From the NCBI GenBank assembly GCA_004335835.1, contig RWJK01000214.1, positions 119,088-183,087 of the forward strand: a stretch of 64,000 bases of DNA. Reading direction: 5' to 3'. This DNA comes from Scenedesmus sp. ARA3 (Eukaryota; Chlorophyta; Chlorophyceae; Sphaeropleales; Scenedesmaceae). Shown here piece after piece: positions 14,390 through 64,000 of the stretch (the first letter of the stretch is position 1; each line of letters starts with the position of its first letter). The notes beneath the pieces are model-generated. The model did not search any database, was not told the DNA's origin, and saw nothing but the letters and a program-made list of their open reading frames with translations. Made by a program: the position numbers and the translations under genes.

Positions 14390-16143
14390 ATGTCGTCGCT
14401 TGCAAACGCTATCAAGCGCAAAACGCACAAGGAGCGCTCACAGCCGTAAGTATGGCTAGGGCCTGCTGTCGAGCGCGACCTTGGCGTGTGCGCTGCAGGC
14501 CATGGTGCTTAAACTGCTGCCCTGCCTGCTTGCTGCTGCCAGGGCTGCTCGACGTAAGTATGGCTTGCTGGAGAAGAAGAAGGACTACTTGCTGCGCGCT
14601 AAGGACTATCACAAAAAGGATAAAACTATCAAGGTAACTATGCAGCTGTGCAGCTTGCCTAGCAGCAGCAGCAGCAGCAGAAGCATGTGCTGCATGCTCT
14701 GGAAGGGCGTAGCAGCAGCTGTTCAAGGCTTGTTCACTAACAATAATTATCTGCTTTTGCTGCTGCAGCACCTGCAAAGTAAAGCTGAGCAGCGCAACCC
14801 AGATGAGTTCTACTTTGCCATGGAGAAGGCGCAGACAAAGGATGGGGTGCACATACAAAGGTATGTTCTGTCAGCAGAGGCCTGCCTGCTGGCGCAATTG
14901 TGCGCTCAATAACAGCAACAGGAACAATACGTTACATATGTGGTAGTGCAGGTGAAACTGCTGTATGGCCTGCACTTGCAACGCTGCAAGCCTGCTGTAC
15001 TTTCCGTGCCAGCTGCATAGCAGCAGCATTGCTGGGCTGACGCAGCCGTTGCTTGTGCCACACACTGCAGGTCCACTGAGGCCAACAAGTACAGCCAGCA
15101 GGAGCTGCTGCTGATGAAGACGCAGGACGCAAAGTACCTGGGGCTGAAGAGCAGAACAGAAGCAGCGGTGAGCCACTGCTCTGCCTGGCCAGCACTGCTG
15201 CTGCCGTGCCTGCAGCTGATCTGTAGCCGATGTTACAATGGGGCTGCCTGCAGCACAGTACATTTGCTAGTTTCAGCAGTGATGGGCTCAGCACCTGCAG
15301 GTATCGCCTGGCCTCTGCTAGCCTTGCATGGATGCTGTCACGTGCTCTGCCTGGTGTTCTGCCCAAGCGCACAGTGTGGGCTCAAGGCAGCCGTTCTGTG
15401 CCGCTGCTGCTTGCTACTGCTAAGGCTAAATTACGCGATTCATTGTTGCTGCCATGTCACCCCTTGTGCATGTCCACAGAAAGCCGAGAAGCTGAAGGAG
15501 AGCCTGCACTTCATAGGCATGGCGCCGCAGAACAAGCACACCGTGTTTGTGGACAGCGCAGCAGAGGCAGCATCCTTCAAGGCGGCGCAGTTCTTCGACA
15601 CGCCTGCGGAGCTGCTGGGGCGAGCCTACAACAGGCCACGCAACGCGCAGCTGCAGCAGCAGCAGGCGGCACCCAGCACGGCGACTGCGGAGCGAGTGGA
15701 GAGGTGTGTGGCTTGTGCAGCAGCAGCAGCAGGAGCAGCAGGCGTCATAGCAGCCGTTGCTGCAGCTGTGTGCTGCTGTCCGCGTCACAAACACAGCAAA
15801 GTGAATCGTTTACCTTATCTCGCTGTATCAACTTCCCCCTGTGCCTCCAGCAGCAGACAACCCGCATGCTGTTGTTGCAGCGCAGCTGTTGCACAGCTTT
15901 CTGGGTCTAAGGCGCTCACTGCCGCTGTCTGCCGTGTCGTTCTGCTGCTGTGTGGCCAGGCGCAAGGCGTCGGCGTACCGGGAGCTGTCGCAGCGGCTGG
16001 AGCGGCAGCAGAAGCTGGCCGGGCTGGCCAGTAAGATGGCTATGGACAAGGAGCTGATGGGCAAGGGCCGCAAGCGCAAGCTGGCCGATGCAGACGGCAG
16101 CAGCCAACCAGTGTACAGGTGGAAGCGGGAGCGCAAGAAGTGA
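14390..16143 (+). CDS. UTP11: U3 snoRNA-associated protein 11 (UTP11)
   Basis: Small-subunit processome component needed for 18S rRNA maturation in the nucleolus. Six exons: 14390-14445, 14543-14633, 14769-14860, 15071-15167, 15480-15703, 15960-16143; 247 residues, close to the 253 of human UTP11. Landmarks in family order: a basic N-terminus ending HKERSQP, GLLEKKKDYLLRAKDYHKK, NPDEFYFAMEKAQTKDGVH, LLMKTQDAKYLGLK, ESLHFIGMAPQNKHTVFVDS, FFDTPAELLGRAYNRPR, and a basic tail ending VYRWKRERKK. The protein is mostly charged and helical. A small Gln/Ala-rich insert (AQLQQQQAAPSTATAERVE) follows the NRPR motif. The start is fixed by the family-typical first exon. A (CAG)n tract begins three bases after the stop. 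Possible TGTAA poly(A) signal at 16648. Confidence 0.95.
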
Positions 16144-23376: not shown

Positions 23377-26300
23377 TCAGCGCTTGCACGCCGACTGCTC
23401 CTCGGCACCATTCGCACTCATGCGGCGCTTGTGGCCCGCCAAGCTGCCAGCGGCTGCTGCCGTCTCCTCCACAGCCGGGCTGTCACTGACACCAGCTGCC
23501 TGCGCATCGACTGCTTGCTCTGGCTGTGGGTGCGGAGGGCTGCCATGGCCGGCCAGTGCTGCGCACAGCTCATACATGCCGTGGCAGGTGATCCTGCGGC
23601 CACCATACAGCAGCATGTCTGTTGCCACGTCTTCCAGGATGCTGTCCCCGGCCACGCCGCCTTCTGCCAGCAGGCCACCAGACAGCATGGCACCCACGCC
23701 AGTAGGGGTGAACATGCCAGCGTTGCCACCGGCGGCAGCAGCAGGGTGGCCCAGTGCTGCTGCCATCAAGCCATCAGCAGGTCCGGGGGCTCCACCAGCG
23801 CCCAGCAAGCCCAGCGGGCCAGTCTGCAGGCCAGGCGGCAGCCCCGACCCGGCTGCTGCTACAGCCCCGCCAGCAGCAACACCGCCAGCTGCAGCAGCAG
23901 CAGTTGCACCAGGCAGTGCTCCCAGCTGGCTGATGCCTGCGCCCAGCCTGCCATGCACTCGGCCTGGTGGGCCGCCAGCTGCCCCAGCCACTGCCGCAAA
24001 GCTGCCTGTTGCGCCGCCTGCAGCACCCAGTGACGCCAGGATGCTGCTGAACAGCAGGCCTGCCTGCATCTCCCTGGAAGCGGTTGAAGCCGCCGGCGCA
24101 GCTGCAGGTGCCGGCGCACCCGGCTGATCAGCCGGTGCCGCGGCAGACACCGCTGCACCAGCACCTGCGCCTGCACTCCCTGCCACCTCGCTGCCTGCTG
24201 GCCTGCTGTCTTCTGGCACTAGCATGGCAGCTGCCCTGCGCGCCAGGTGCTGCAGCTGCAGCGTCCGCTGCTGGTGCTGATCAGCTGTGAGGAGCACGGG
24301 CAGGCCCTGTGCTAGCTCTGGCAGCTGCACCAGGTCAGACAGCACTGCCTCCAGCTCCAGCTCCCTGCCGGCAGTGCCAAACGCTGCTGCCGCTGCACCC
24401 TCGGCTTCCACTGCCTCACCAGCAGCAGCACCACCCACACCAGCAATGGTGCCTGCAGCAGCTGCAGCTGCAGGGCTGTGGGCGGCCAGCAGCTGCAGCA
24501 AGCCAGGCAGCTGGTTGCCGATGCGCTGCAGCACGCGCAGCAGCTGCTGCTGCCGCTGCACCTGCGTAGGCAGCGGCTCCAGAGCAGCCCTGCTCACACT
24601 GGCCATGCCTAGCAGCTTGCTGATGCCCTTGGCAGTCTGCAGATACTCGCTAGCCGCTTTTGCCGCCGCAGCAGCTGCTGCCGCCTCGTCCACACCAGCA
24701 GGCATTGCACTCAGCGGCAGCCGGTTGGGCACTGCTGCTGGCGCTGTGGCTGCAATGAGCTCCGCGCAAGCTGGCGCCAGCAGCCGCTGGCCAGCTGCCA
24801 CATCACCCTGCTCAATCGCCACCAGGATGCCAACCACATGCTGCCTGGCTGCTGATGCCTCCTCATACAACACAAAGTCCTCCACAAGGGCTCTCTGCAG
24901 TGTCCCAAGTGGGTCAAGCTTTGGCCCAGAGCCTGGCGCTGGTACTGCTAGAGCTGCAGCTGCAGCTGCACTGCCAGCAGCTGCAGCACTGGCCACACCG
25001 CTGTTATCTGGCTGTGCTGCTGCTGCTGCTGCACCTGCTGTTGCAGCATGATCCGAGCTGCTTGTCCCTCCAGCAGCAGCACCAGGGATGCTGAGTGCAA
25101 GCAAGTCCAGCAGCCTCCTTCTGCTGTGCCTGCCAGCTCCCCTGGCTGCTGCCAGACCAGGTGCACCCACTGCCCCTGCCCCTACACCACTCACAACCTC
25201 CCCGAGCAAGTGCTGCATCTGTACATCACCCCTGCTCTGAGCAGCTGCCCTCCCATCCAGTGCTGCCTCTGCTACCTCTGAGAAGCTGCCGCTACCCGGC
25301 TGCCGACTGATCTGCTGCTGCTGCTGCTGTGCTGCTATCCTAAGCTCTAGCTCTGCTTGTGCTAGCTGTGACACAAGTGCATGCGCTGCTCCTGGCAACT
25401 GCTGCTGCTGCTGCTGCTGCTGCTGGGCTTCCACACCATTGTCTGGGATCTGCAGCGCAGGCAGACTAGACTGCCTGCTGATTGCAGCAGAGCCCCATGA
25501 CCCAGAGTGCTGCCCTTCCTGCAGCAGCCGCAGCGTTGGCAATGGCGCGCCTGCGCCTTGCAGGCCCTGTGCTACCGCTGTGGCACCTGGCTGCTGCTGC
25601 TCTACTGCCTGCACTAGCACTGCCTGCGCCTCAGTGCCTGCCAGTGACACCCCAGAGCCCCATGAGGCCCGCGCCTCAGACCTCAGCCGGTGGCTGGATC
25701 TCCTGCTGCCCGCGCTGCTGCCAGACTGCAGCCTGCTGCGCAGCAGATACCTGCCAGCCACCTGGCCGCCTGCTGGGGCGCTGCTGGGGGCTGCAGGGCT
25801 GCCTGGTGCATCCTGCTGGGCTGAGGTGTTCCGGCCAGTGCTGCTAGCCCGCATGCTAGACTGCTCGGCCAATAAGGCGCTTGCAGCTGGGTGCTGCAGT
25901 GGGTGCTGCGTGCTGCTGCTGCTGTGCTCAGCCTGCTCCGCTGCCAGTGCTGCCAGTGCTGCTGCTGCACCTGCTGCAGGGAGAAGCGGCTCGTCGCCTC
26001 CGCTCAGTGGCTCTTCCGAGTGCTCTACTGCTGCTGCTGCTGCTGCGGCGGCGGCTGCCAAGATCACGTCCAGTGACTCGGGCACTGGGACAGGCACTGG
26101 TACAGGCAGCAGCAACTGGCCTGCTGGGGCTTCTGGACCGGCCGGCTCCTGCTGCACTGCCTGCTGCCTTCTGAGGCCAGCCGCAGGGCTAGCAGCAGTA
26201 GCCTCTGCCACTGCTTGAGGTGCAGCTGGCGCTGATGCTGGGATCACTACAGCTGCAGGCCTAGGTGTTGCTGCTGATGCAGGCACCCCCGCTGATGTCG

Positions 26301-28337
26301 CTGGTGTTGCTGTCGCAGCAGCTGCCGCAGGTGCCTGGGTTGCTGTGCTGCACTGCCAGCCACTCGCAAGCAGGCCGTGGGTAGCGGGGAACGCAAAGCG
26401 GCATACGCTATCCATCAACCGCTTGTGGGGTCCCAACACCGGCTGCTTCACTGCAAATGCCATGTGCGGGTGTGCTGCTGCTGCCAAGCTGCTTGACAGC
26501 TGCTGCTGTTCAACCAGGATGGGACTGGCTTCCTGCGCCCGCAAGCTGCCAGCAACAGCAGAGCGGAACTTCTGAAGCTGCTGCCACTCAATGCCTGTCA
26601 GCCTGCCACCCGCTGCAGCAAAAGCCTCAGCATCCACACTGACAACTGGGCCCCCTGCTGCTGGCACGCCGCCAGGCGCTATGTTGTGTGTTGCCGGCAG
26701 CACTGCTGAGCCGTCCGGTGCCAGCTGCCTGTGTATGAGCGGGGGCGCAGTGCTGGCGGCGATCAACTGGATCAGAGAGCTGGTGCCTTCACTTAGCGAT
26801 GCCCATGACGGCCTGGCAGCAGCAGAGATTCGCAGTAATGCTAAGACAAGGTTTGTTTTGTGTGTTGTCCTGCAGGCAAATCTGGTCGGCTGAATCTAAT
26901 GCTGCTGCTGCTGCTGTCACATGGCTGCGGTACCTCTAACAAAGGGATTCGTGACACGCAATTGCACAGTCACATCCTGTGCCAAGCGTCACCATGTTGC
27001 TCTGCCCCTCACCTGCTCTGTGCCAGAGCGACGTGCCTTGCCAGTGCATGCACGCACAGCTGACGCAGCTTCTGTCTCTGCAGCTGCTCGCAGTGCAAGC
27101 ACCAGCCTATGAAGCTGTCCAGCACTGCGTGCCGACGCTCTTTACTCAGCCCTGCACATACAAAGACAGCAAACTCAGCATGCTTGGTAGTTGAGGTTTG
27201 GGCGCTGTCTCTTCCACAGAACAGCTTGGGCAGTTCAGCATGTAAATCAAGCTGTGCAGGAGTCGCAAGCTGCCGCCTCCCCAGCCGTTGCTCACCTTGC
27301 CAGCTCAGCAGCTGCAGCTCCAGCTGCTGCGCAAAGCGGGCCTCACACAGGTCCACCAGCCGCTGCAGGTTGCATGCCAGCGCCACTACGTGCAGCTGTG
27401 GCGTGAGCTCTGCCTGCTGCTGCACATCGTCCAGGTACAGGAACTGCACCAGGCTGTGCAGGCAGGGTCCGTCAGGCACACACGACAGCCGCACCTGCAC
27501 AGCAGCCATCAGCAAGCAAGTTAGCAGCTCAACACGTCTCAACACGTCTGTGCAGCCTGCTGGTCAGGCATCAGCAGGTAACGCTCTACACGTTGCTGGT
27601 GATGAAGGAGGCACTGCCATGGTAGGCGCTGCTGTGGCTGCTGCCGCCCTTGTGCTCACCTGCTCCACCTCTGCTGGCATGGGCTGGCCCTGCAGCACAG
27701 GCAGCCTGCACTGCAGCACCAGCTTGTGAACGCGCTGGCAGCTGCCATCCCCAGCCAGCAGCTGCACGTCAGCAGAGCACAGCCGGCTCTCCCAGACTGG
27801 CTGGAAGCCAGGGCAGGCAGGGCCAGGCCTGAAGCGCTCCGCACTTGCGCGTGACACGCCAGGCACGTCCGGTTTCAGCTCCAGCACCAGGGGTCCGTGG
27901 TAGCGCGCAACCTTGCACACGCCAGGCTCGCAGCGCTCCTGCAAGCAGCAATGGCAACACCTCAAGACTGTCAGACGGCACAATATACGCTGCTGCTTGT
28001 GGGGCTGCCGGAGGTGCTGGCAGCCAATGTTTGGTCTGAGAAGCAATTTTGAGCTTGATGGATTGCTCAAGTGATTGCAGGTGTGCGGGTAAGCAGCAAA
28101 GGGAGACGCTACAGGCTGAGCCCTGACAGCACTGACAACAGCTGGATTCAGGCAGGCTGCTGTGGTCACCTGCAGGATGGTGTCAAGCTCCTGCCTGCTT
28201 TCGACCGATGCCAGCAACACATCGCCGCCCGGCCATCTACAGATGAAGTGAGGCATCCCAAAGTGGCTGCTGCTGACCAAGTGCGTGCCACCTGCAAGCA
28301 CGTGACAATAACCAGTGCTGTCAAGCTGGGTTAGCAT
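23377..28337 (-). CDS. BTB/POZ-domain protein with long low-complexity C-terminus
   Basis: Five exons on the minus strand: 28337-28170, 27938-27660, 27494-27296, 27151-27013, 26812-23377; 1406 residues, all phases agree. The BTB fold spans about residues 110-212: SADVQLLAGDGSCQRVHKLV (the usual D-V and V-H-K of the fold), then HSLVQFLYLDDVQQQAELTP and VVALACNLQRLVDLCEARFA. A short BACK-like helical piece follows (ERRHAVLDSFIGWCLHCEQL). The last exon encodes 1145 residues rich in Ala, Gly, Gln and Pro with a few ordered islands (ELDPLGTL-like LDPLGTLQRALVEDFVLYEE; ATDMLLYGGRRITCHGMYEL) and ends in a basic tail. BTB proteins are often Cullin-3 substrate adaptors; that role here is inference. 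The start is uncertain, since an acceptor-like CTTGCAG follows the first ATG and an upstream first exon is possible. Confidence 0.75.
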
Positions 28338-29044: not shown

Positions 29045-30676
29045 ATGGCAGATCAGTTTGATCTGGCAGCTCTGGCCCTGCTTCCTGACAATGTCAAACG
29101 CAAAATATTTCATAATGTCGGGAAAACTGATACTCACTCACCTCAGCAACAAGTACCGCAGCAGCAACCACAACAAAGGCATGCGCCCGCACGAACTGCA
29201 TCTGTAGCTGGAGAGGCGGTCAGCGCTGTACGAGGCAGAGCAGTGCAGCTGCCTGCAATAGGCAGTGCCGGAGTGTGTGTTGTTGACGATGTGCTGTCTA
29301 TAACAGAAGCACAGGTAGGCTGGACAGCTGCTGTCGCTGCCTGCAGAGCTGTCCGCCAGGCTGCAGAACAGCTGTCACACGCCGGTCACCTGCACAGCTG
29401 CCTGTGCACATGCTCCTCTTGCATTCTCAAGAGTTGCTCTTCTTGCAACTCTTGGGGTGAAATTCAATTTTGAACATACGCTGTTTGTACTGCAGGCAGC
29501 TGCAACAGCACTTGAGGACTGGTTGGCCTCTCATGGCCGCAGGCCAGGCATGGGTGCACACACCTCTGGGGGCCGGTGGCATGATGAGCAGCTGCGTGGT
29601 GATGTCACCAGCTGGGCAAATGAGGGAGAACTCCAGGCGGCAGGCCAGCCATTGCTAGCAGCTGTCCTGCATATGCTGGCATCATTGAGGCCTCAGCTGG
29701 CTCAGCAAGGGTGAGGGACAAAACCACAATCGCTTGCAGCAGCAGCATCAGCACTCGCTCATGCGCTCACCGACAGCAACAGCTACCACAGCACACTGAA
29801 AACGTCCAAGCACTGGAGACCAGCAGGCTTAACTTTCCATTTCTTAGCCTGAAGCATTGCAGGGTGTGCCTGCTGTGTGCAGGTTTGATGTCGGCGGCCG
29901 CATCAGCGTGCAGCTGGCCTGTTACCCTGGCAGGGGTGCCCGCTACGTGCGCCACACTGACGCTTCTGATGCAGTGCCTGGCCGTACAGTGACAGCACTG
30001 CTGTACCTCAACACCAACTGGGATGTGCAGGTGCGAGCGGCAAAGTGTTGGATGCTGCTGTCAGACACTGCATGAAGAGTTCAAATCCAAGTGTTGAGGA
30101 TTTAGTTCGACAGTCCAGGCGCAGTGGGGCAGAACCATAACTGCCTTGGACAAAGAGGGAGCTGCACAACCTGCCAGTCACTGAACTGCTGCTAGCATAA
30201 GTTGAGAAGTAGTTCCGCTCTTGCCTTGGTTTGATTTGTGCAGCGAGATGGGGGCCAGCTGGCGCTATATAACGCGCCCCATGCCAAGCTCAGCAGCACC
30301 AGCGGGACCAGCAGTACGAGCAGCTGCGGCGAGCAGCCTGCTGGCTACCTTGCTGGAGAGCCTGCGCTGCTGGTCGCACCAGTGGCTGGCAGGCTGCTGG
30401 TGTTTGACGCGCGGCTACCGCATGAGGTGCTGCCTGCTCAGCGCCACAGGTACTCCATCAGCGCCTTCTTCTACAAGGCGCAGCAGCAGGGCACAGCAGC
30501 CGCAGAGCCAGCAGCTGCAGAAGCAGCAGGACCAGCTACGCACCCAGCAGACGTACCGCCAGGAGTGGCAGGGCCAGCAGCAGCAGCAGCAGCAGCACCA
30601 GCACCAGCACCAGCACCAGCAGCACAGATCGACTCAGTAGTCAAATCAGCTGGCTGTGAGCACTGCATTGCTGGAA

Positions 30677-30738
<62 letters not shown>

Positions 30739-32711
30739 ACGCAGCCTGGCGCCACCAGCGGCAGCGGTGATGGCATGACATTGCTTCTACCCCGCATCTT
30801 CGTCAGCATCGCTGCTTTCCGTGACGAGGAGTGCCAGTGGACGCTGCGGGATCTGTTCCTGCAAGCCACACACCCGGAGAGAGTGGTTGCTGGTGTGGTG
30901 TGGCAGGTTGACCCGCAAGCAGACCAGGCCTTCACTCGCATGGCAGGCGGGCAGCGCACAGCTCCCTATCAGCAACAGGTGCGGTATCTGAATCATATCT
31001 ACTGCGGTTGGGCGGGTTTGTTGTACTGCAGCTGCTGCAGGCTTTGCTAAGAGGGCGGCGTTGCGTACTGTCATCGCTTCAGGAGGAACGCCCACATTGC
31101 TGTGTTGTCGCTGTCATCACTGCTGCCTCTCCGTCCTGCTTGTCTCAGGTCTTCTTGCTCTCACTGAGCTTGGGTGTGGGCATTTGTGCTGCTGCCCCAG
31201 GTGCGTGAGGTGCGGCTTCATTACAAGGCTGCCACAGGGCCCTGTGCAGCCCGCAGCCTTGCGCAGCAGCTGTGGGCGGGCGAGGAGTTTGTGCTGCAGA
31301 TCGATGCACACATGAGGTGAGCATGTGGTGTTTTGCACCGCATAAAACATGTGTATGCTGCATGGCGCCTGCTGGAGTGCCTTGGTGACTGTTTGAGCAC
31401 ATAACGCGGATTGCATCGTAAAGTGGACGAGCCAGATTTGGTCAAGCCTTGCAGCTGCTTGTCCAAAAGCCGTGTGCCTTATGTTCACGTATGGGGCGAA
31501 TGTGTTTGCTTGTCAAGCGTCTGTTGAGCTCATCCGTGCTGCGTGTGCACTGGATGCAGGTTTGTGCAGGGATGGGATGTCCTGTGCCTGCAGCAGCTGC
31601 AGAAGGCTCAGCAGGCAGCTGGCAGCAGCAGAGTGGTGCTGTCCACCTACCCGCTAGGCTACAGTGGCCAAGGAGCTGCAGCACAGGTGCCCGAGCACGC
31701 GCCTGCCACACTGCTGTGTGCCAAGGGCTTTGACGACTCTGGTTTCCTGCGCGTCATATCTAGGTGAGAGTGTGCCGCAAACATGCACCCCCAGCAGGCC
31801 AGCTGCTGGCGGCAGAAGGGGGGGGGAGGGCGGTGCAGCAGCTGCGCCATTGAACAGAACACCACAGCAGTGAGCAGCCAGTGCCTGCCTGCCTGCACTA
31901 GCTCTTACAGCACGTGCTTGTGCTATGCATGCCATGTGATGCAGAATCGCAAGCTTTGTGAGTGGCTGTGCCATCTGCTGCACTGCAGGACTCTGTGCAC
32001 ACAGCCGCCTGGCCCGCTGCCCAGCTACTTCTGGGCGGCAGGCTTCAGCTTTGCCCCTGCAGCCTGGCTGCTGGAGGTGCCGTACTGCCCGCACCTGCCG
32101 CACCTGTTCTTTGGCGAGGAGGCGTACATGCTGGCGCGCATGGTGACGCGCGGCTGGCAGGTGTGGGCGCCCAGCTTGGCGCTGCTGTTCCACCAGTGGG
32201 AGAGGGGCGAGCGCTCGACAAGCTACCAGGCATCTGGCCAGGTGAGATCTGGCAGGGCCAGGGTTGCCTGTGGCTTGCCGGCTTGCTGCTTTGCATAGAT
32301 AGGTGTCGTGATTCTCGTATGTGTTTGAGAGTATTTGCTGCGGGTGCCTGCGGAAGCATGCAGCGCTACTCATGCACGCTTTGCTGGCCTTGCTGCATGC
32401 AGGTGGATCAGGAGCTGAGGGCAGCCTCACAGGCCAGAGTTCTACAGCTGCTCTGGTCAGGCAGTGAAGGCGCCGCAACTGTTGTATCACCAGGCTACGA
32501 ACAAGAGCCTGCCTCACAAGCAGCAGGGATCAAGCACCCAGGCCAACCACCGTCTGCGGCTGACTGGGCACCTGGTGGCATCTGGGGCCTGGGCACCTCC
32601 AGGACGATGCAGTGGTTTGAATATAGCTGTGGTGTGAAGTTCAAGGAGAAGCTTATTGAGCAGCGTGCACTGTTTGGAGGGCGGGACCCTGGTGTGTTTG
32701 TGACGCTGTGA
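29045..32711 (+). CDS. Fused prolyl 4-hydroxylase / Skp1-hydroxyproline GlcNAc-transferase
   Basis: Eight exons: 29045-29314, 29496-29710, 29883-30030, 30244-30978, 31201-31316, 31560-31763, 31989-32241, 32403-32711; 749 residues, phases all agree. Residues about 90-290 form a HIF-PHD/PhyA-type 2-oxoglutarate/Fe(II) dioxygenase: LACYPGRGARYVRHTD gives iron ligands H186 and D188, GGQLALY follows, and LPHEVLPAQRHRYS gives H271 and the 2-oxoglutarate-binding R280 (spacing 9, as in PHD2). A linker with 18 Ala (358-375) leads to a GT60-type GlcNAc-transferase: IFVSIAAFRDEECQWTLRDL, QIDAHMRF (D491-A-H493, the metal/nucleotide-sugar motif), GWDVLCL, FWAAGFSF, FFGEEAYMLARMVTRGW, and a C-terminus SCGVKFKEKLIEQRALFG. 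In Dictyostelium these two activities, on separate PhyA and Gnt1, modify Skp1 in the cytoplasm in response to oxygen. No signal peptide is seen. One exon (30244-30978) spans hydroxylase, linker and transferase, so the join is not a splicing artefact of my model. Confidence 0.92.
30682..30735 (+). repeat. (GCA)18 tract coding poly-Ala linker
   Basis: Eighteen uninterrupted GCA codons inside exon 4 of the hydroxylase-GlcNAcT fusion. They are read as alanine between the two enzyme domains and are likely length-polymorphic. Confidence 0.9.
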
Positions 32712-33164: not shown

Positions 33165-35618
33165 ATGTTTGCGGGGCTCGAGGCAGACCTGATTTCTTCA
33201 TCTCCTGGTGTTGCTGCCAAGCCAGCTAGAAACAAACGCAAGGATCCAAAGGTGAACCAATGCTTTCATGGTCAGAGACAACTTGAGATGCTTGTGAAGG
33301 TTTAACACATCAGCAGGGCAACCGGTAGCATGCAAACCTTTCAAAACATGTGTATAATTGTAGCAACCCTGCTGGCGTTGAAGTACAGAGAACACTGCTT
33401 GCAGGCACAGTGACAGGGCAATCGCCAACACGTTACTTGTCGTGCAGGTTTGGCTTGCAGGAGAGCTAATTGTGCGGTGTGAGAACCAGGGGCTCACTTC
33501 TTTGCCGCCTCAGCTCTGGCTGAAGACAACGCTGCGCACGCTGGTGCTGACTGGCAATGCCTTGGCGTGCCTGCCACCAGACATACAGCTGTTGAAGGAG
33601 CTGAGGGAACTGCACTTGGGCCACAATCAGCTGGCGCAGCTTCCAGACGAGTTATGCTTGCTGTCGCAGTTGCAGCACCTGGATGTGCAGCACAACCAGT
33701 TGACTGAGGTGCCTGCTGGACTGTGCAGGTGGGTTGGCAGCACACCCAACAGTATAATGTTTGCTATCAACATTATATCATCAAGGCTACAGCTGTAGGA
33801 GGCACAAAGCGTACAATTGAAGTTTGCAGAAACAAGCTTTGTCCACGTGTAATGAAACCTGCCTGAACATGCTCAACTGCTGCTGGACCGGCGCAGGCTG
33901 GTGCACCTGGCTGTTCTCAACCTGGATGGCAACCCCCTGCGCCCAGCACTGCAACAGCTGTGGGGTGCACCAACATCAGGTACCAGCAGTCAGCAGCAGC
34001 CGCCACTTTCAGGCAGGCAGGCAGCAGCTGCAGCAACATCCAGGGTGAAGGACAGCACACAGGCAGTGCTGCAGCACCTGCTGGAGCAGCAGGTGTGTTG
34101 AAATGGCAGCAGACGTGTCTATCTGCTTAAACCATGTTGATACACAAGAGTTACCTGGTTGAAATATTGGTGCCCTTGCCCTGAGCTTGCGTCAAGCTCA
34201 TCAGTAGCGTTAGCTTGACATTCAAAGGGATAACCATGCAAGCCTATAACAAGCACGTGCCATGTTCTGCAACCCCACATCATCGCCATTTATGTCTTGC
34301 TGCAGGACCCCACGACTGTGCTGCAGGTGAAGCAGGCCAAGCTGCAGCTGCTGCAGCAAGCCAGCACCCAGCAGATCCTCAAGCTGCTGCATGTTGCCAA
34401 CCCGGACAGCCTGGCAAACTGTGCCAGCATTGCAACCGGCACAGGGCTCAGCAGCAGCCTGGTCCAGAGGATTCAGCAGGCACAGGCGGCCACTGCAGAA
34501 ATGCAGGCGGCGCTAGCAGCTGTACAGGACATGCAGGGCAGCAGCACACCCACTGGCTTAGAAGCGGGAGGCGCAGCACACGAGCAGTTGTCTTCTGCAC
34601 TGCGGCAGTTTGAGTCGCTTTGCAAGCCTGGTGAGGCCAGTTGTCGGGTACATCTAACAGTGCGCTGGTTGTGCATGCACAGCCTCTGACGAAGACGCAC
34701 CAACTCTGACGTGGCACATGGGCGACTATCAGTTGCCGAGCACTAGCGCACGTCTGCAAGCTCACAAGCGTCGGTCATCAGGCATGCACCGTATCTGGCA
34801 TCCATAGATGTCTGATGCATGCAGGCAGATCACCTACTAGGATGGGCAGATCACCTACTAGCTAGTAGCTTTTACCCAGCTGCGCCCGTATGTTTGCAGG
34901 ACGGCCCAGCGGGCCAGTGTATGCAGCTGCACATGCTATGTGGCGCAACCTGCAGCGGCAGGCGCTGGAGCGAGGCTGGCGGTGCAGCAGCCCTAAGAGC
35001 CCGGCGCCAGCAGCAGCGCCAGCAGAAGATAACGCAGAAGGTAGAGCTACGGACACCGCTCAGCATGATGGTTCTGTCAGGAGCAGCAGCAGCTCACCGC
35101 TAGGTGGCCGGCGCTTTCTCACCGTGCAAGAGCAGACACGCCAGCGCCTGGAGGCTGCTGGGGCTAAGAAGTACCAGGAGTGGGCGGCAGAGAAGCAGCG
35201 TGCAGAGCAGCTGGAGCGGCAGCGCGTGGCGGTGAGTGTCAGGCATGCAGGCTGGCTGCCAGGCTGGACTGTATGCATCAACACTGACACTTTAATGTAC
35301 AGCCAATTGGCTTGCACTTACACATGATCTTGTTCTTTGTGGGCCGCGGCTTGTTCTCTGCAAGTCAACAAGCTGCATCCTGCCATCCACGTGCAGGCGC
35401 TGGCACAGCAGCAGGCGCAATCCAAGGTTCCCGTGGTTGCAAGCAGAGCAGCCAAAGCTGTGGACAACTGTGCCAAGGAGAAGGCATGGCCCAGCAAGGT
35501 TGAGCAGTTTGCGCATGGCACCTTCAGCCTGCCACCCGAGCAGCTAAAGGCCATCATGCGTGCCTACCAGCGGCCGCCACTATTGCAGAGCGAGGGCTCA
35601 GACGAAGGCAGCAGCTGA
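33165..35618 (+). CDS. Leucine-rich-repeat protein (short LRR, coiled C-terminus)
   Basis: Six exons: 33165-33251, 33448-33728, 33897-34092, 34306-34630, 34900-35231, 35397-35618; 480 residues with agreeing phases. A basic start (KPARNKRKDPK) is followed by about five SDS22/LRRC-type repeats: CENQGLTSLPPQLW, LRTLVLTGNALACLPPDI, LRELHLGHNQLAQLPDEL, LQHLDVQHNQLTEVPAGL, LAVLNLDGNPLRPALQQL. After them come Ala/Gln-rich helices (QILKLLHVANPDSLANCASI), a Ser-rich linker, and a charged coiled-coil-like stretch (KKYQEWAAEKQRAEQLERQR). The C-terminus KVEQFAHGTFSLPPEQLKAI is distinctive. No signal peptide or membrane span, so intracellular. It resembles small LRRC57/LRRC40-like proteins in the repeats only; function is unknown and LRRs usually bind a protein partner. 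Confidence 0.82.
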
Positions 35619-40978: not shown

Positions 40979-43078
40979 TCACACATATGACACGCCGCTG
41001 CCCTCCACCACCACACCCAGCTCAAACAGCCCTGCATCAACCGCCTTTGCTGCTGCCACCTGGCTGGGATCAACAACCACAACCATACCCACGCCGCAGT
41101 TAAAAGTGCGGCGCATCTCCGCGTCCGAGATGTTGCCGGCCTGCTGCAGCCACTGGAACATGGGCGGCACCTGCCAGGCGCTGGTGCTGATGTTCACGCC
41201 CAGGCCCTTGGGGATGACGCGGGGGATGTTCTCAGTCATGCCGCCACCCGTGATGTGCACCAGGCCCTTCAGGCCCACCTGCAGCAGCAGCAGCAAGGCA
41301 AGGTGAAACAACAAAGGGTTAGCCCACAAGCAATACTATGGATACGGCGTGATAGAAAACAATTGAGCACAGTTACAGCTGCCAGCAATGACAGCGGAAG
41401 GAGGGAGCCACATACACCGTTGCGCAAAGCAGCACAGATGTGGCAGACCAGCAGCAACGCCGCCAAGCAGCAGCTCCCAACGCACCTGCTCATGCAGCGC
41501 CATGACGTGCTTCACGTAGATGACGGTGGGCTCCAGCAGCGCCGCACCCGCGCTGCGGTCCCCGCCCCAAGGCGCAGCATCATGCAGGCTCACGTTGGAC
41601 ACCTCCAGCACCTTGCGCACCAGGCTGAATCCGTTGCTGTGCACGCCGCTGCTGGCCATGCCTAGCACCACATCACCCGCCTTGATGGTCTTGCCGGTGA
41701 TGACCTGGAAAAGCGCAGCAGGGCAGAGAGTAACAGAGCACACAACGGGTGAGCGATGATCAGTCGCGGTCGTGCTGTGCCCGTGGAACGCAGGCGCCTT
41801 CGTTGACCAGGGTGTGTACAGAGAGTGCTGCATGCAAGCATGCATAAGCACAGGCGCGACATACGCTAAGAGCCCTGCTCACAAGCCCTACTTGCCCCGC
41901 ATGTGACTCTGTTGTGCTGCTAGCCACAAGGATGCGCGATAGCAACTGCAGAGTTCGCATGCAGTGCAACGTGCAATAGCAACTGCATTGCGCATGCTGA
42001 TGCACGCCTGTGTGGCAGCTTGCTCGCATGCTTGCTTGCTGGTGCCTCACCTTGTCCTGCTTGACTGCGCCGACAGCAAAGCCGGCCAGGTCGTACTCCC
42101 CTTTCTGGTAGAAGCCGGGCATCTCTGCGGTCTCACCGCCCAGCAGCTGGCAGCCGGACTGCTTGCAGCCGTCCACAATGCCCTTGATCACCTGGAAAGC
42201 GCAGAGCAGAGGAGGGACACATGGCAGGTTAATGCATAGTAGCCGTAATATGCCTGTAGTGTTATATGCGGCGAGGGAAAGGGAGCATCCAGGAGGCACA
42301 GTGACGTGGCTAGGTTTTGATGAAACAGTAAAGCTGCTGTGCAGCACATGTGTCCATGTGCAAGCAAACCAACGTGCACCATGCTGCAAGGGAGGTGCCG
42401 CTGCCGCAACATGCACTGCAGCTGTGGCCTGGCCAATGACACCAGTGAGCAATAGCTTGGATGCACACAGGTGTTTCGTGCCTTGGTCTATACGCCGGCA
42501 GCTACGGTGCACACCATTCCAGCCCAACTCTGTTGCGCATGCATAAACTAGCAGTGTCAAAGGGCCTGTTGGCAAGCAGCACAGCATGCATCTCAAGCCC
42601 ATGTATGTTACTAACCCCTTGACAGCAGGCTCACCTGCTCTGCAGCATCCACATCCAGCGCGCCAGTTGCGTAGTAGTCCAGGAAGAACAGCGGCTGCGC
42701 CCCAGAGGTGATGATGTCGTTCACACTCATGGCCACCAGGTCGATGCCCACTGTGTCGTGCTTGTTCATGTCAAAGGCAAGCTTCAGCTTCGTGCCCACG
42801 CCGTCTGTGCCTGCCACCAGGTAGGAATCACCGAATGGCACCAGGCCACTGAAGCCCCCAATGGTGGGGTTGAGCTTTTGAATGCGCTTCACCAGCTCAT
42901 CGCCGGCATCAATGTCGACACCTGCTGCTTTGTAGCTGAGCCCTTCCTGCGGCGCTGCAGTGACTGCGCAACCCAGCTGCTTGTTTCGAACCCTGCGACT
43001 GCTGACTGCGACCACTGGCCTGCCCAGGGACTGCTTGCAGGAGCAGCGCACCCGCTGAGCCTGCTGTGTAAGCGACAT
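40979..43078 (-). CDS. PUR5: Phosphoribosylformylglycinamidine cyclo-ligase (AIR synthetase)
   Basis: Fifth step of de novo purine synthesis: ATP-dependent ring closure of FGAM to AIR. In plants it acts in plastids. Four exons on the minus strand: 43078-42635, 42191-42051, 41704-41486, 41278-40979; 367 residues. After an N-terminal extension of about 45 residues rich in Arg, Ser and Val, a likely transit peptide, the PurM core runs: [146 protein letters not shown] and [11 protein letters not shown]. All nucleotide- and substrate-loop motifs are present. It is head to head with PEX19, 411 bases apart. Confidence 0.96.
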
Positions 43079-59781: not shown

Positions 59782-62700
59782 GTGGAGCTGCTGCTGGAGC
59801 TGCTGGCGGACAGTGCGGAGCAGCTGCTGGCTGAGGCGGGGCTCATCCCTGACACGCGCACGCACCTGTCCGGCAAGCCGCTGCCGCAGTGAGTGGGACC
59901 CGGCAGCAGCAGCAGGGAGCAGGGAACCATGCAGTCCAGCAGCAGACAGGGAATGAGCTAAAATACCTCAGCAGCAGCCGGCAGGGAGTCATGCAGCTCA
60001 GCAGCAGCGGGTGCTGGTGCTGCAAAGCGCACTGTCAGCTTGTCTTTCAGCAGGGAGAGATGCCAGCTTTGTTTTACACTAGTAATTGCGATGCATGCAT
60101 TCGCCAGCCCGCACAGCACCAGGGTCATGTGCTGCAGAGTCTTGCTGGGCTGGCAGTGCTGCATGAGGCCCAACGCTCTCTGGCAGTCATGCGTCGCTTG
60201 CTCTGCTGCTGACCTGCGTGCCCTTTCTGCGTCTCCTCCCCTTCCTCCTCATGCAGCTGCATCACCGCCAACAAGGAGCCGTTTGCGCACAAGGCGTGGC
60301 GCAAGACGCCGTACGAGCCGCGGCCCTACGTGGAGCTGCGCGACTACGCCATCACCAGCAACGTGCCAGCAGAGGTGACGCGGGCTGGGCGGGCTGGCAG
60401 CTGGCTGGGCGGCTGGCTGGGCACCTGCAGGGTTGGGGGGTTGGGGGGCTTGTCTCGGTGGCGATCAGGAACAGGGCGGGGGTGTGAACAGCAGTGTTCA
60501 GCAGCACGGATGCATGTGTTGCGATCTTCAAAGCAACGTGCAGCAGCTGTCCTGGTTTTCCCTGTTCGGCTGTTCGGTTATAGAGCAAATACGCATCGCA
60601 CGTGCATTACTGTTAGTACACGCCGTATGCAGCCACCAGCCGCACACGCATGCGCTGCACCGCACACACACCTGGACTCATCAACTCGCCATAACACAAC
60701 ACCGCTAGCTGCACCGCACTATCGCTGCCGCAGGCTCGCGCGCTGCGCTGGAAGCTGACCACGCGGCGCCGTGATGGCGCTGGTGACGGCTTCTGTGACA
60801 AGCACAGCGACCTGTCCCCGGAGCAGCTGGCGCAGCAGGAGCAGCACCTGGTGCAGCAGGTGGGTGGCGGGTGGTGGGCGGTGGGTGGTGGGCGGTGGGA
60901 TGTATTAGAGAGAGGGAAGTTACGTGTGGGTGCTGGCACCATGTAATGTAATGCACCGTGTAATCTAATGCACCGTGCGGAGGGGTGCTGGCGGTGTGTG
61001 ATGCAAGGCTGGGCGCTGGTTACTGGCGCAGCAGGTTTGCACAAGGGTTGATGCTGTACATGCAGCAAAGTGGCAGCAGCACAGAGCTGCGCGGCTGCAG
61101 GCAGCAGCGGCAGGGAATGCTGCGAACTTTGGCGCCGCGAGTTGCGTGAGCTCAACATCGGTGGCTGCACATCCAGCTGATGCCCCGCTGCAGCTGTCGG
61201 TTGATGCGTTCTTGCGTTAATGACCTACGCCACGCCATGCCGCTACGCATGCCTGGCACTGCTGCTGCTGCTGCTGCTGGCCAGGTGCTGCGCCGCGCCG
61301 CGCTGGTGAAGGGGCGTGACGTGCACGAGGTGGACTGCTGGGGCATGGACTGCTACACGCGCCGCAACGTGTTTGATGCGGTCCTGGAGGCGGACGTGTT
61401 CAAGCACCTGCGGGGGGTGGGGCCCAGGGCCCTGGAGCCACATCAGCAGCAGCAGCAGCAGCAGCAGGATGGGCAGAGGCTTGAACAGCTGCAGCAGCAG
61501 CAGGAGCAGCAGCAGCACGGCAGTGAAGCGTCAGCAGGGGCTGACAGCATGCAGGCGATGAAGCAGGAGCATGATGCTCTCAGGGAGCTCAGCTTGCAGC
61601 CGCAACAGCAGCAGCAGCAGCAGGTAAAGCAGGAGCAAAAGCAGCAGGAGGCAGGGACCCCACCGCAACAGCTGTTGCAAGCTGCACAGGCCAGCAACAG
61701 CCAGGGGCTTGAGCAGCTGCAGCTGCAGCAGCAACAGCAGCCTGCCTCAGCCAGGCAGTCTCCTGATGTGCAGGTAGCTCCAGCTGCTGCCAGCAGTGTG
61801 CCTGGCAGCGGGGATGCTGTGGCTGGCGCTGCTGTTGCTGCTGACGGGGAGCGCAGCCGCTGCTCCAGCGAGGTAGGCGCTGCCGGGCAGCCTGTTGTGT
61901 ATGTGCACAGCTTGCTGTTTAACTCGTTGCAGATGCATGCCAGGTATGTAAGTGTGTGCATGGCTGGCCGTGTTGTGTGCATGTGTGGCAGCTGCAGGGC
62001 GCAGCAGCTCAATAGGTCCAATGTACCTGCTATTGGCAATGCTTTCTTGTCACCCTTTCTCTATGCCTGAAGTGCCGTCTAATCTCTGTGTCGTGTTGTC
62101 TCGTGTCGTGTTGCGCGGGGCACGCACAGGTTGCTGCTGGCGGCTGTGCTGGCCAGCCATGCAGCATGGAGGCAGGCCTAGCCAGGCAGCAGCAGCAGCA
62201 TTGCAGGAAGTACAGCCAGGCTGAGGAGGATGCGGTGCATGAGTGAGTGGCTGCGGCTGCGCTGGCAGGAGCTGGCTGCTGCATTGCTGCATGATCTTGA
62301 TGTGTCTTGAGCAGTGTATGGGCAACTGTGCATACAGACACAGGCAGCAGCTAGGCAGCTTGCTCCCCCTTCACCATGCTGTAACCTGTTGTCATCGGCC
62401 CTCTGCTGTTCTTTCTGCCGCAGGTGGATTGACCGGGTGTTCCTGCCAGCCATCAACCAGGCAGGCACGGACGGCTGGGACATTGTGCGTGTGGCAAACG
62501 CCATCAAGGACAGGGCCCAGGCCAGCGGCGACGAGGTGCGGCCCATTTGCAACTGAACACACCTGCGTTTGGATGCTGGCTGCTGTATGCCAGCAGGCCA
62601 GCCTCACCAGCAGCATTGCAGCACAGCGCTTTGCAGGTGGCAATGTACCGTGGACTCCAATTCATCACATCAGCTTCATCACATCACATGTTGGCTGATC

Positions 62701-63743
62701 ACACTCGCATCGGCGTTTGCTGCTTCCCTGCGTGCACTGCGCATTGCCCAACATGCTGCAGACGAGTGCCGCTGCCGCGGAGGCTGTGCTGTGCCAGTGG
62801 GCGGCCAGCGGCTACCCCTGGTTCAGGCTGCACCCCAAGGGCCGCGGCGTGGTGGTGGCGCGCCAGGAGGGCGTGCCCGCCTTCACCTTTGTGGAGGAGT
62901 ACTTTGGGCAGCTGCACACGGGTAAGGCTTCATGCGGGTTTAGGGCTTGGGTCGCTGCTGGCGAGATTGAGGTTCCCAAGCAGTGATGTCAATCGCAACC
63001 TGCAGGAATCTTTATTTGCCCTCAACTCGCGCTCCCGCTTGCACTCACCAGCCTCTGACCATTGTTTATCGCGCTGTTGCGCTGCGCGGTGCGCTGCCGC
63101 GTCAGGCTGGCGCTGGTTTGAGATGCAGGACGCCATCAAGAAGATCACGCAGAAGGAGCTGCCGGACTTCTACAACATCCTGCTGGAGCGGCCCCGCGAC
63201 GACCCTGACGGCTACGACGCGCTGTTTGTGGACGCCGCCTTCATGGGCGCCTTTGCGAGCCGCATGAGCCACAGCTGCACACCCAATTGCCAGGTGGGGC
63301 AGTGGCTTGTGCCTGGTGTGGTTGCATGTGCAGCACGCCCAAGTGCAGGGCGCATGGGAGCATTGCAGCCGTGTGGATGTGCAGTTGCCGTGCTGTGTGC
63401 AAGCGTGTACTGCTTGATTTCAGGCCACAATTCCATGCTGCATATTGCATGCACGGCTTGTTACATCAATCACCTACACTGGAAAATCAGGCACTGTCCT
63501 CACCGCGTGTCACCTTCCCTCCTTGTGCATTGCACCTGCCAGGCCATTGTGGTGAGCTGCGGCGGCAAGCTCACCGTGGCGCTGTACACCATCCGCGCCG
63601 TGGCCCCTGGCGAGGAGCTGACCTTTGACTACAGCAGCGTCACTGAGAGCGAGGAGGAGTTCAAGCAGGCCTTCTGCATGTGCAGCACGCGCGCCTGCAG
63701 GGGCAGCTACCTCTACTACACAGGCAGCAAGGCATACATGCAG
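58202..63743 (+). CDS. ATXR3/SDG2-like SET-domain histone H3K4 methyltransferase (3' end beyond window)
   Basis: ATXR3/SDG2 is the main H3K4 trimethylase of Arabidopsis. Exons: 58202-59121, 59334-59466, 59782-59888, 60257-60374, 60734-60859, 61285-61943, 62207-62242, 62424-62535, 62762-62921, 63106-63293, 63543-63743, then off the edge; 920 codons here with agreeing phases. The N-terminus is Gln/Tyr/Gly-rich with an RGG box (GGRGGGRGRGRGRR). The ATXR3-specific middle follows: ANKEPFAHKAWRKTPYEPRP, RALRWKLTTRRRDG, GFCDKHSDLSPEQL, GRDVHEVDCWGMDCYTRRNV, FDAVLEADVFKHL, poly-Gln insert, SLLFNSLQMHAR, YSQAEEDAVHEWIDRVFLP, WDIVRVANAIKDRA. The SET domain spans about 775-885: KGRGVVVARQEGVPAF, FVEEYFGQ, RWFEMQDAIKKI, DFYNILLERP, RMSHSCTPNC (845-852 core), GEELTFDYSSVTES (Y883). 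Cys-rich CMCSTRACRGSYL follows as the post-SET-like part. Confidence 0.93.
60862..60899 (+). other. Regular six-run G-quadruplex-prone tract in intron
   Basis: Six GGG runs at an exact 7-base period (60862, 60869, 60876, 60883, 60890, 60897) with four-base loops. It begins two bases after the 5' splice site GT of an ATXR3-like intron. Confidence 0.85.
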
Positions 63744-64000
63744 GTGGGCGGGTGCAGGCAGCAATGGGTACATGCGGGTGCATGGGTGCGGCTGCCTGCC
63801 CATGGCCAGGTGCTGCGCATGTCCAGAGTACTTGCATCCGGCTGCCTGGCAACATCTGATGGCCAGGTTTAGTGCATGAGTGTGTCAGCTGTTGCAAAAT
63901 ATTTCACCAGCTGGTGGCCGCCTGCTGCCTACTTAACGGCTTCACCACCATCTCAACTCACCTCGTTGCACGCCACAACTGTGTGCAACTCCCCTCCCCC
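63744..64000. other. Intron of the ATXR3-like gene, truncated by the window edge
   Basis: Starts with a GT donor after KAYMQ. No in-frame continuation of the post-SET region was found before the right edge, so the next exon should lie outside. Confidence 0.5.

Follow-up and report, generated by a model that had tools for sequence, protein, structure and literature searches.

Six enzymes modify Skp1, and odd-even pairs of them are frequently fusion proteins (PMC8724618, where van der Wel et al. are cited). A widespread fusion of the hydroxylase with the N-acetylglucosamine (GlcNAc) transferase is already in print (PMC6437050). Pythium ultimum is listed among the organisms whose enzyme of the prolyl hydroxylase domain (PHD) type hydroxylates Skp1 (PMC7864055), and green algae, represented by Chlamydomonas, among those with Skp1 pathway-like genes (PMC3515798). 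Here we analyze a 64,000-nucleotide stretch of Scenedesmus sp. ARA3 (contig RWJK01000214.1; hereafter the window, with position 1 at its first letter), in which one gene very probably encodes, as judged from its sequence, a soluble bifunctional Skp1-modifying enzyme that would act first as hydroxylase and then as GlcNAc-transferase. A dual-function prolyl 4-hydroxylase/GlcNAc-transferase of the plant pathogen P. ultimum, with Skp1 as substrate, is reportedly, to go by its title, the subject of a 2019 paper by van der Wel (Glycobiology 29:705).

The original prediction for this locus had left it undecided whether such fusions had been reported elsewhere; the published record answers that they have (PMC6437050, PMC8724618). 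In kind, both this fusion and its broad distribution are thus known already, and an F-box-like motif at the N-terminus may be the new part. In the passages of open literature that were examined, no statement on an F-box-like motif in PhyA was found; in one figure of PMC6437050 a region next to the catalytic domain is labelled 'H1', and this region could include the motif segment.

A prolyl hydroxylase and a GT60 transferase in one open frame

Eight exons on the forward strand join in frame to a 749-residue fusion protein followed by a stop codon. All seven introns begin with GT and end with CAG. Read from stop to stop, the frame of exon 1 has its first Met, M1, at 29045. The predicted product is a PHD/EGLN-type prolyl hydroxylase, an Ala/Pro-rich linker and a GT60 GlcNAc-transferase in a single protein. 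The features, with their basis in brackets, are:

29045..32711, + strand: whole gene, PHD-GT60 fusion, 749 residues (in-frame GT-AG model; Pfam; relatives with the same architecture)
29045..29314, + strand: exon 1 (in-frame GT-AG model)
29081..29107, + strand: LPDNVKRKI, residues 13-21, F-box helix-1-like N-terminal motif (pattern and F-box matrix; this copy alone is not significant)
29496..29710, + strand: exon 2, N-terminal half of the PHD domain (in-frame GT-AG model)
29883..30030, + strand: exon 3, PHD core, with H186 at 29953-29955 and D188 at 29959-29961 (gene model; alignment)
30244..30978, + strand: exon 4, end of the PHD domain, with H271 at 30421-30423 and R280 at 30448-30450, then the Ala/Pro-rich linker (about residues 290-390) and the start of GT60, with I396 at 30796-30798 (gene model; Pfam; alignment)
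31201..31316, + strand: exon 5, GT60, with D491 at 31303-31305 and H493 at 31309-31311 (gene model; alignment)
31560..31763, + strand: exon 6, GT60 (in-frame GT-AG model)
31989..32241, + strand: exon 7, GT60, LPHLFFGEE block (gene model; alignment)
32403..32711, + strand: exon 8, GT60 C-terminus and stop (in-frame GT-AG model)

Both halves match Pfam profiles over the curated cut-offs, the first PF13640 (2OG-FeII_Oxy_3; 3.3e-16, residues 171-288) and the second PF11397 (GlcNAc; 5.3e-62), which places the C-terminal half in the GT60/PF11397 family, as had been proposed; a match to PF11397 alone does not tell Skp1-type proteins apart from the rest of GT60. Among 21 aligned sequences, the window protein included, the HxD...H iron triad (H186, D188 and H271) and the 2-oxoglutarate (2OG)-binding R280 are invariant, and D491 and H493, the D-x-H motif of GT60, are conserved in at least 90% of the rows, some of which are partial. 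The dioxygenase identity and the intact catalytic residues of both domains, as originally described, are thereby confirmed. The PHD fold was seen through the predicted model of a relative, P0011, and is common to Dictyostelium PhyA (6T8M). A GT60 tree groups the window protein with fused relatives; the tree includes no characterised Gnt1, and its sole row named gnt1 (P0074, of Symbiodinium) lies elsewhere. By eye, the first residues of the window protein contain no hydrophobic run, and a secreted mucin-type enzyme was rejected for the GT60 half on this ground.

The join between the halves is crossed by one exon of 735 bases (30244-30978, residues 212-456), which carries H271, R280, the linker and the start of GT60. 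The gene model, exact to the base, bears out the prediction that this exon runs uninterrupted from the end of the dioxygenase to the start of the transferase, and that the two activities are physically fused, the PHD preceding GT60 in one open frame. A relative named as a transcript-derived open reading frame (ORF), P0037 (GHRR01019440.1.p1), likewise continues without a break from its N-terminus across PHD and linker and stops, after 448 residues, within the first part of GT60; we take GHRR01 to be a transcriptome project.

Spread and history of the fusion

A search with the GT60 half returned 38 proteins, 27 of which have both PF13640 and PF11397 in a precomputed table, and a profile search returned 97. 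Among 121 proteins (120 matches from these searches and the window protein), 67 match both domain profiles; P0003, for which the table lists both Pfam domains but which the PHD profile does not match, is left out of this count. Named chlorophyte carriers include Scenedesmus, Volvox, Pleodorina, Edaphochlamys, Chlamydomonas eustigma, Trebouxia, Coccomyxa, Parachlorella and Micractinium; other named carriers include Closterium, Guillardia, Prymnesium, Nitzschia, Aphanomyces and Achlya. Closterium, which we take to be a streptophyte, and the remaining ones, presumably a cryptophyte, a haptophyte, a diatom and oomycetes, are added here as carriers.

Mapping the fused label onto the 102-row GT60 tree takes 9 changes (shuffled mean, 34), of which at least 5 are forced by starred branches; part of the 9 fall on rows inside the green clade judged to be partial gene models. 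After pruning (54 fused versus 34 unfused proteins) 4 changes remain, and the test does not reject a single clade of fused proteins (log-likelihood 3.5 lower; p-AU 0.36); the 14 rows dropped (6 judged partial models, and 8 long-branched or odd, including the fused P0070) and the fused group used in the clade test were both chosen after the tree had been viewed. One old fusion event is possible, as far as the tree goes. Related GT60 stretches are also common on viral contigs (at least 595), and in 80 of these loci (L049-L128) no ORF of at least 80 residues matches the PHD profile or any of three other 2OG oxygenase queries; a virus link of the fusion was rejected because these loci lack a PHD-type ORF of that length.

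Some proteins of the set depart from the common layout. The transcript-derived P0070 has the reversed order, GT60 first, with the motif LPPNVSANILSLL (298-312) between the domains, before the PHD. P0003, a metagenomic protein of 1289 residues (longest contig, 70 kb), ends in a 2OG oxygenase and, on visual inspection, seems to contain three GT60 repeats. The unfused Gnt1 of Symbiodinium natans, P0074, carries a MYND finger (PF01753), as do many animal EGLNs, and domain exchange between the two steps is possible. Two GT60 proteins, P0086 and P0103, one of them from a metagenome-assembled genome of Pseudomonadota, have a PqqD domain (PF05402), which suggests peptide modification. In P0017 a formyltransferase domain (PF00551) follows the N-terminal motif and precedes the PHD core; it may be a gene-model artefact.

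An F-box helix-1-like motif at the N-terminus

Near the N-terminus the window protein has the segment LPDNVKRKIF, with counterparts in Pleodorina (LPDNVRRQIL) and Coccomyxa elongata (LPDTVKAQIL). The pattern LPxx[VILMA]xxx[IVLMF], written after the motif had been seen, occurs ahead of the PHD match in 34 of the 57 fused proteins that have at least 15 residues there (10 of the 67 have fewer and were left out), with 2.6 expected from shuffles, and within the first 60 residues of 18 of 21 hand-picked green-type proteins (not P0009, P0028 and P0045). It is also found in unfused enzymes: 8 of 9 dictyostelid-type PhyAs match it, the exception being Acytostelium, and the D. discoideum PhyA record begins MDISNLPPHIRQQILGLI; other proteins without a GT60 match have it in 6 of 17 cases, including P0140 of Ectocarpus fasciculatus. 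The PHD search provided the best 120 of 778 matches, and the PhyAs of Toxoplasma and Pythium are not among these. Mean pairwise identity in 16 rows chosen as motif carriers is 0.41 in residues 11-24 versus about 0.1 in residues 25-68. In the predicted model of P0011 the motif is part of a helix spanning residues 14-25 (mean pLDDT, a per-residue confidence score, over ten residues, 68 and 55) and the pLDDT falls under 50 at residues 27-35, after the helix; with low confidence, the model suits a tethered helix.

A helix-1 matrix was built from F-box exons of the same alga, and N-terminal regions were scored against 1000 shuffles each. The assembly has 84 F-box-like matches at E ≤ 0.01, 72 of which, by our own count, exceed the cut-off; in a control search 1 of 14 genomes gave a match, below the cut-off. 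Of 30 fetched loci, 21 went into the matrix; the other 9 contained a stop or had no P-x-x-[LV] close to their beginning, a selection that favors LP-type F-boxes. The protein groups were set by hand, with P0127 placed among the nine dictyostelid-type proteins. Scores at p ≤ 0.01 were obtained for 15 of 58 fused proteins, 7 of the 9 dictyostelid-type and 3 of 15 other unfused proteins, and for 1 of 83 presumed animal EGLN and none of 12 presumed bacterial PHD proteins. With the real matrix, 60 N-termini gave a mean z of 1.94, and 15 beat all 60 shuffles; the maxima for 150 column-permuted matrices were 0.74 and 8 (dereplication before this test removed little). By these scores, many N-terminal segments are similar to F-box helix 1, across part of the family. 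The likeness is to helix 1 only, F-box helices 2 and 3 being absent, and a Pfam-recognised three-helix F-box was rejected as a description of the motif because 10 N-terminal peptides gave no F-box family match at E ≤ 10.

F-box proteins bind the C-terminal region of Skp1, next to the target proline, through helix 1 among other parts. On a tether of its own, the motif may anchor the enzyme to the face of Skp1 that F-boxes bind, and we propose, giving it somewhat less than an even chance, that many Skp1 prolyl hydroxylases, whether joined to Gnt1 or free-standing, in lineages ranging from amoebae to green algae, attach to this site through an N-terminal mimic of F-box helix 1. A docking helix would fit the inhibition of PhyA by Skp1 P143A, taken by Liu et al. 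as recognition outside the active site (PMC7864055), and the presence of Toxoplasma PHYa among SKP1 interactors (PMC11570480); Dictyostelium PhyA was crystallised from residue 60, and its 1-284 and 60-284 forms have both been produced (PMC7864055).

Instead, the helix of the LPxxVxxxI segment may lend stability to the PHD domain or serve some other partner; this reading is a strong contender, a little short of evens. The segment, of about 14 residues, gave no Pfam F-box match in the 10 peptides, the strict pattern is missing in 23 of the 57 proteins, and p ≤ 0.01 is reached in 15 of the 58 fused ones; the window copy itself scores 2.1 bits (p 0.17) and that of another Scenedesmus protein, P0001, -1.8 (p 0.59). 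Moreover, the reported Km of full-length PhyAs for Skp1 is high, 350 and 202 µM (PMC7864055), which disfavors a tight dock. Set against this alternative are the near absence of significant scores in the presumed EGLNs and bacterial PHDs, the prediction in P0011 of a helix apart from the domain, and the excess of the F-box matrix over all 150 permuted ones. If docking is correct, the oxygen sensor would imitate an F-box protein to recognise free Skp1, compete with F-box proteins and modify Skp1 not yet in an SCF (Skp1-cullin-F-box) complex. Such docking would account for recognition apparently outside the active site.

Skp1 as the likely substrate in the same genome

We infer the activity on Skp1, the order of the reactions, oxygen dependence in vivo, docking and channelling. 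With O2, 2-oxoglutarate and Fe(II), the PHD-type domain would hydroxylate the proline in the NDFTPEEEEEVRREN segment, close to the C-terminus of Skp1, and the GT60 domain, tethered by the low-complexity linker, would then add alpha-GlcNAc to that hydroxyproline. The first step of the Skp1 glycan, and hence the composition of SCF ubiquitin ligases, would depend on oxygen.

In the 87-Mb assembly, the fusion gene is the only locus that matches PF11397 and this PHD domain, and no second match to the PHD domain was found at E ≤ 0.01. Skp1 with its target proline, which the original prediction had suggested looking for in the same genome, was found at a single detected locus (contig C1035). The locus comprises six coding pieces with splice sites at their borders; when joined, they match plant SKP1-like proteins 1B (2.8e-68) and 1A (1.6e-67). 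The last piece ends in NDFTPEEEEEVRRENQWAFD and a stop, so that the target proline, which undergoes hydroxylation in Dictyostelium and Toxoplasma, is present.

Several observations count against a Skp1-modifying enzyme in this alga. Plant SKP1-like protein 1B carries the same proline segment, and the proline alone is therefore no proof. PF13640 matches 15 times in the genome, 14 of them outside the fusion locus, so that other 2OG oxygenases exist, and the PHD domain of the window protein is closer in sequence to animal EGLNs than to Dictyostelium PhyA. GT8 (PF01501, the family of Toxoplasma Gat1) gave no match at E ≤ 0.001 in an exon-by-exon search of the genome, and a full Toxoplasma-type glycan is therefore not indicated; in Dictyostelium, the terminal enzyme differs from the Gat1-type GT8 (PMC8724618). 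The case for this alga comes from genome sequence.

A different cytoplasmic protein as the target of the fusion, in place of Skp1 or alongside it, is unlikely. PHDs do have diverse targets, EF-Tu for the bacterial PPHD and hypoxia-inducible factor (HIF) in animals (PMC7864055), and both the EGLN-like sequence and the missing GT8 would suit such a role; on the other side, the architecture is that of the published Skp1-modifying enzyme, the N-terminal motif is common to dictyostelid PhyA, and Skp1 with the target proline is encoded in the genome. Two separate genes wrongly joined by the model, which for this species derives from genomic DNA, are very improbable and were rejected: an in-frame Met at residue 389, just ahead of GT60, makes an internal start formally possible, but the exon is unbroken across the join, 67 of the 121 proteins are fused, and P0037 crosses the join and, in the alignment, has no Met at that place.

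Other frames of the window

Ten frames of the window were scanned for Pfam domains, and none of them holds a Skp1 pathway gene. Matches were found for 15021-16031 (+; Utp11), 33382-33795 (+; leucine-rich repeats), 41763-42770 (-; AIR-synthase domain) and 62433-63869 (+; SET domain). A stop-to-stop frame of 1172 residues at 23380-26895 (-) has no Pfam match at E ≤ 0.001.

Comparison with known systems

The locus offers a base-by-base, single-gene version of what would be the two initial, oxygen-gated steps in the modification of Skp1, in a green alga whose genome also encodes the substrate. Green algae experience anoxia as well as high oxygen, so that a tag on Skp1 that depends on oxygen would link the choice of ubiquitin ligase to photosynthesis. 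If the N-terminal helix does dock on Skp1, it would explain how oxygen sensors of this class select their folded substrate.

Polypeptide GalNAc-transferases (GT27) are secretory and act on Ser/Thr; they differ from the GT60 half, with 13% identity in the alignment. Animal EGLN/PHD HIF prolyl hydroxylases share the oxygenase fold and the catalytic residues and are the best sequence match of the PHD half, but they act on HIF and have no GT60, many of those listed have a MYND finger, and 82 of the 83 presumed EGLNs are without a significant F-box-like site. Dictyostelium PhyA and Gnt1 provide the same two activities, and PhyA has the N-terminal LPxx motif and the PHD fold; there, however, the activities reside in two separate proteins, and the PhyA crystal construct (60-284) lacks the motif. 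The P. ultimum enzyme, by its title, likewise joins hydroxylase and GlcNAc-transferase in one polypeptide with Skp1 as substrate, although it belongs to an oomycete and not a green alga, and the sequences compared here are those of its relatives Aphanomyces and Achlya. The fusions described in print have, as stated there, the same architecture (PMC6437050). On the strength of its sequence, the Scenedesmus gene is thus a well-supported instance of a known architecture, to which the putative F-box-helix mimic makes a bold, testable addition.
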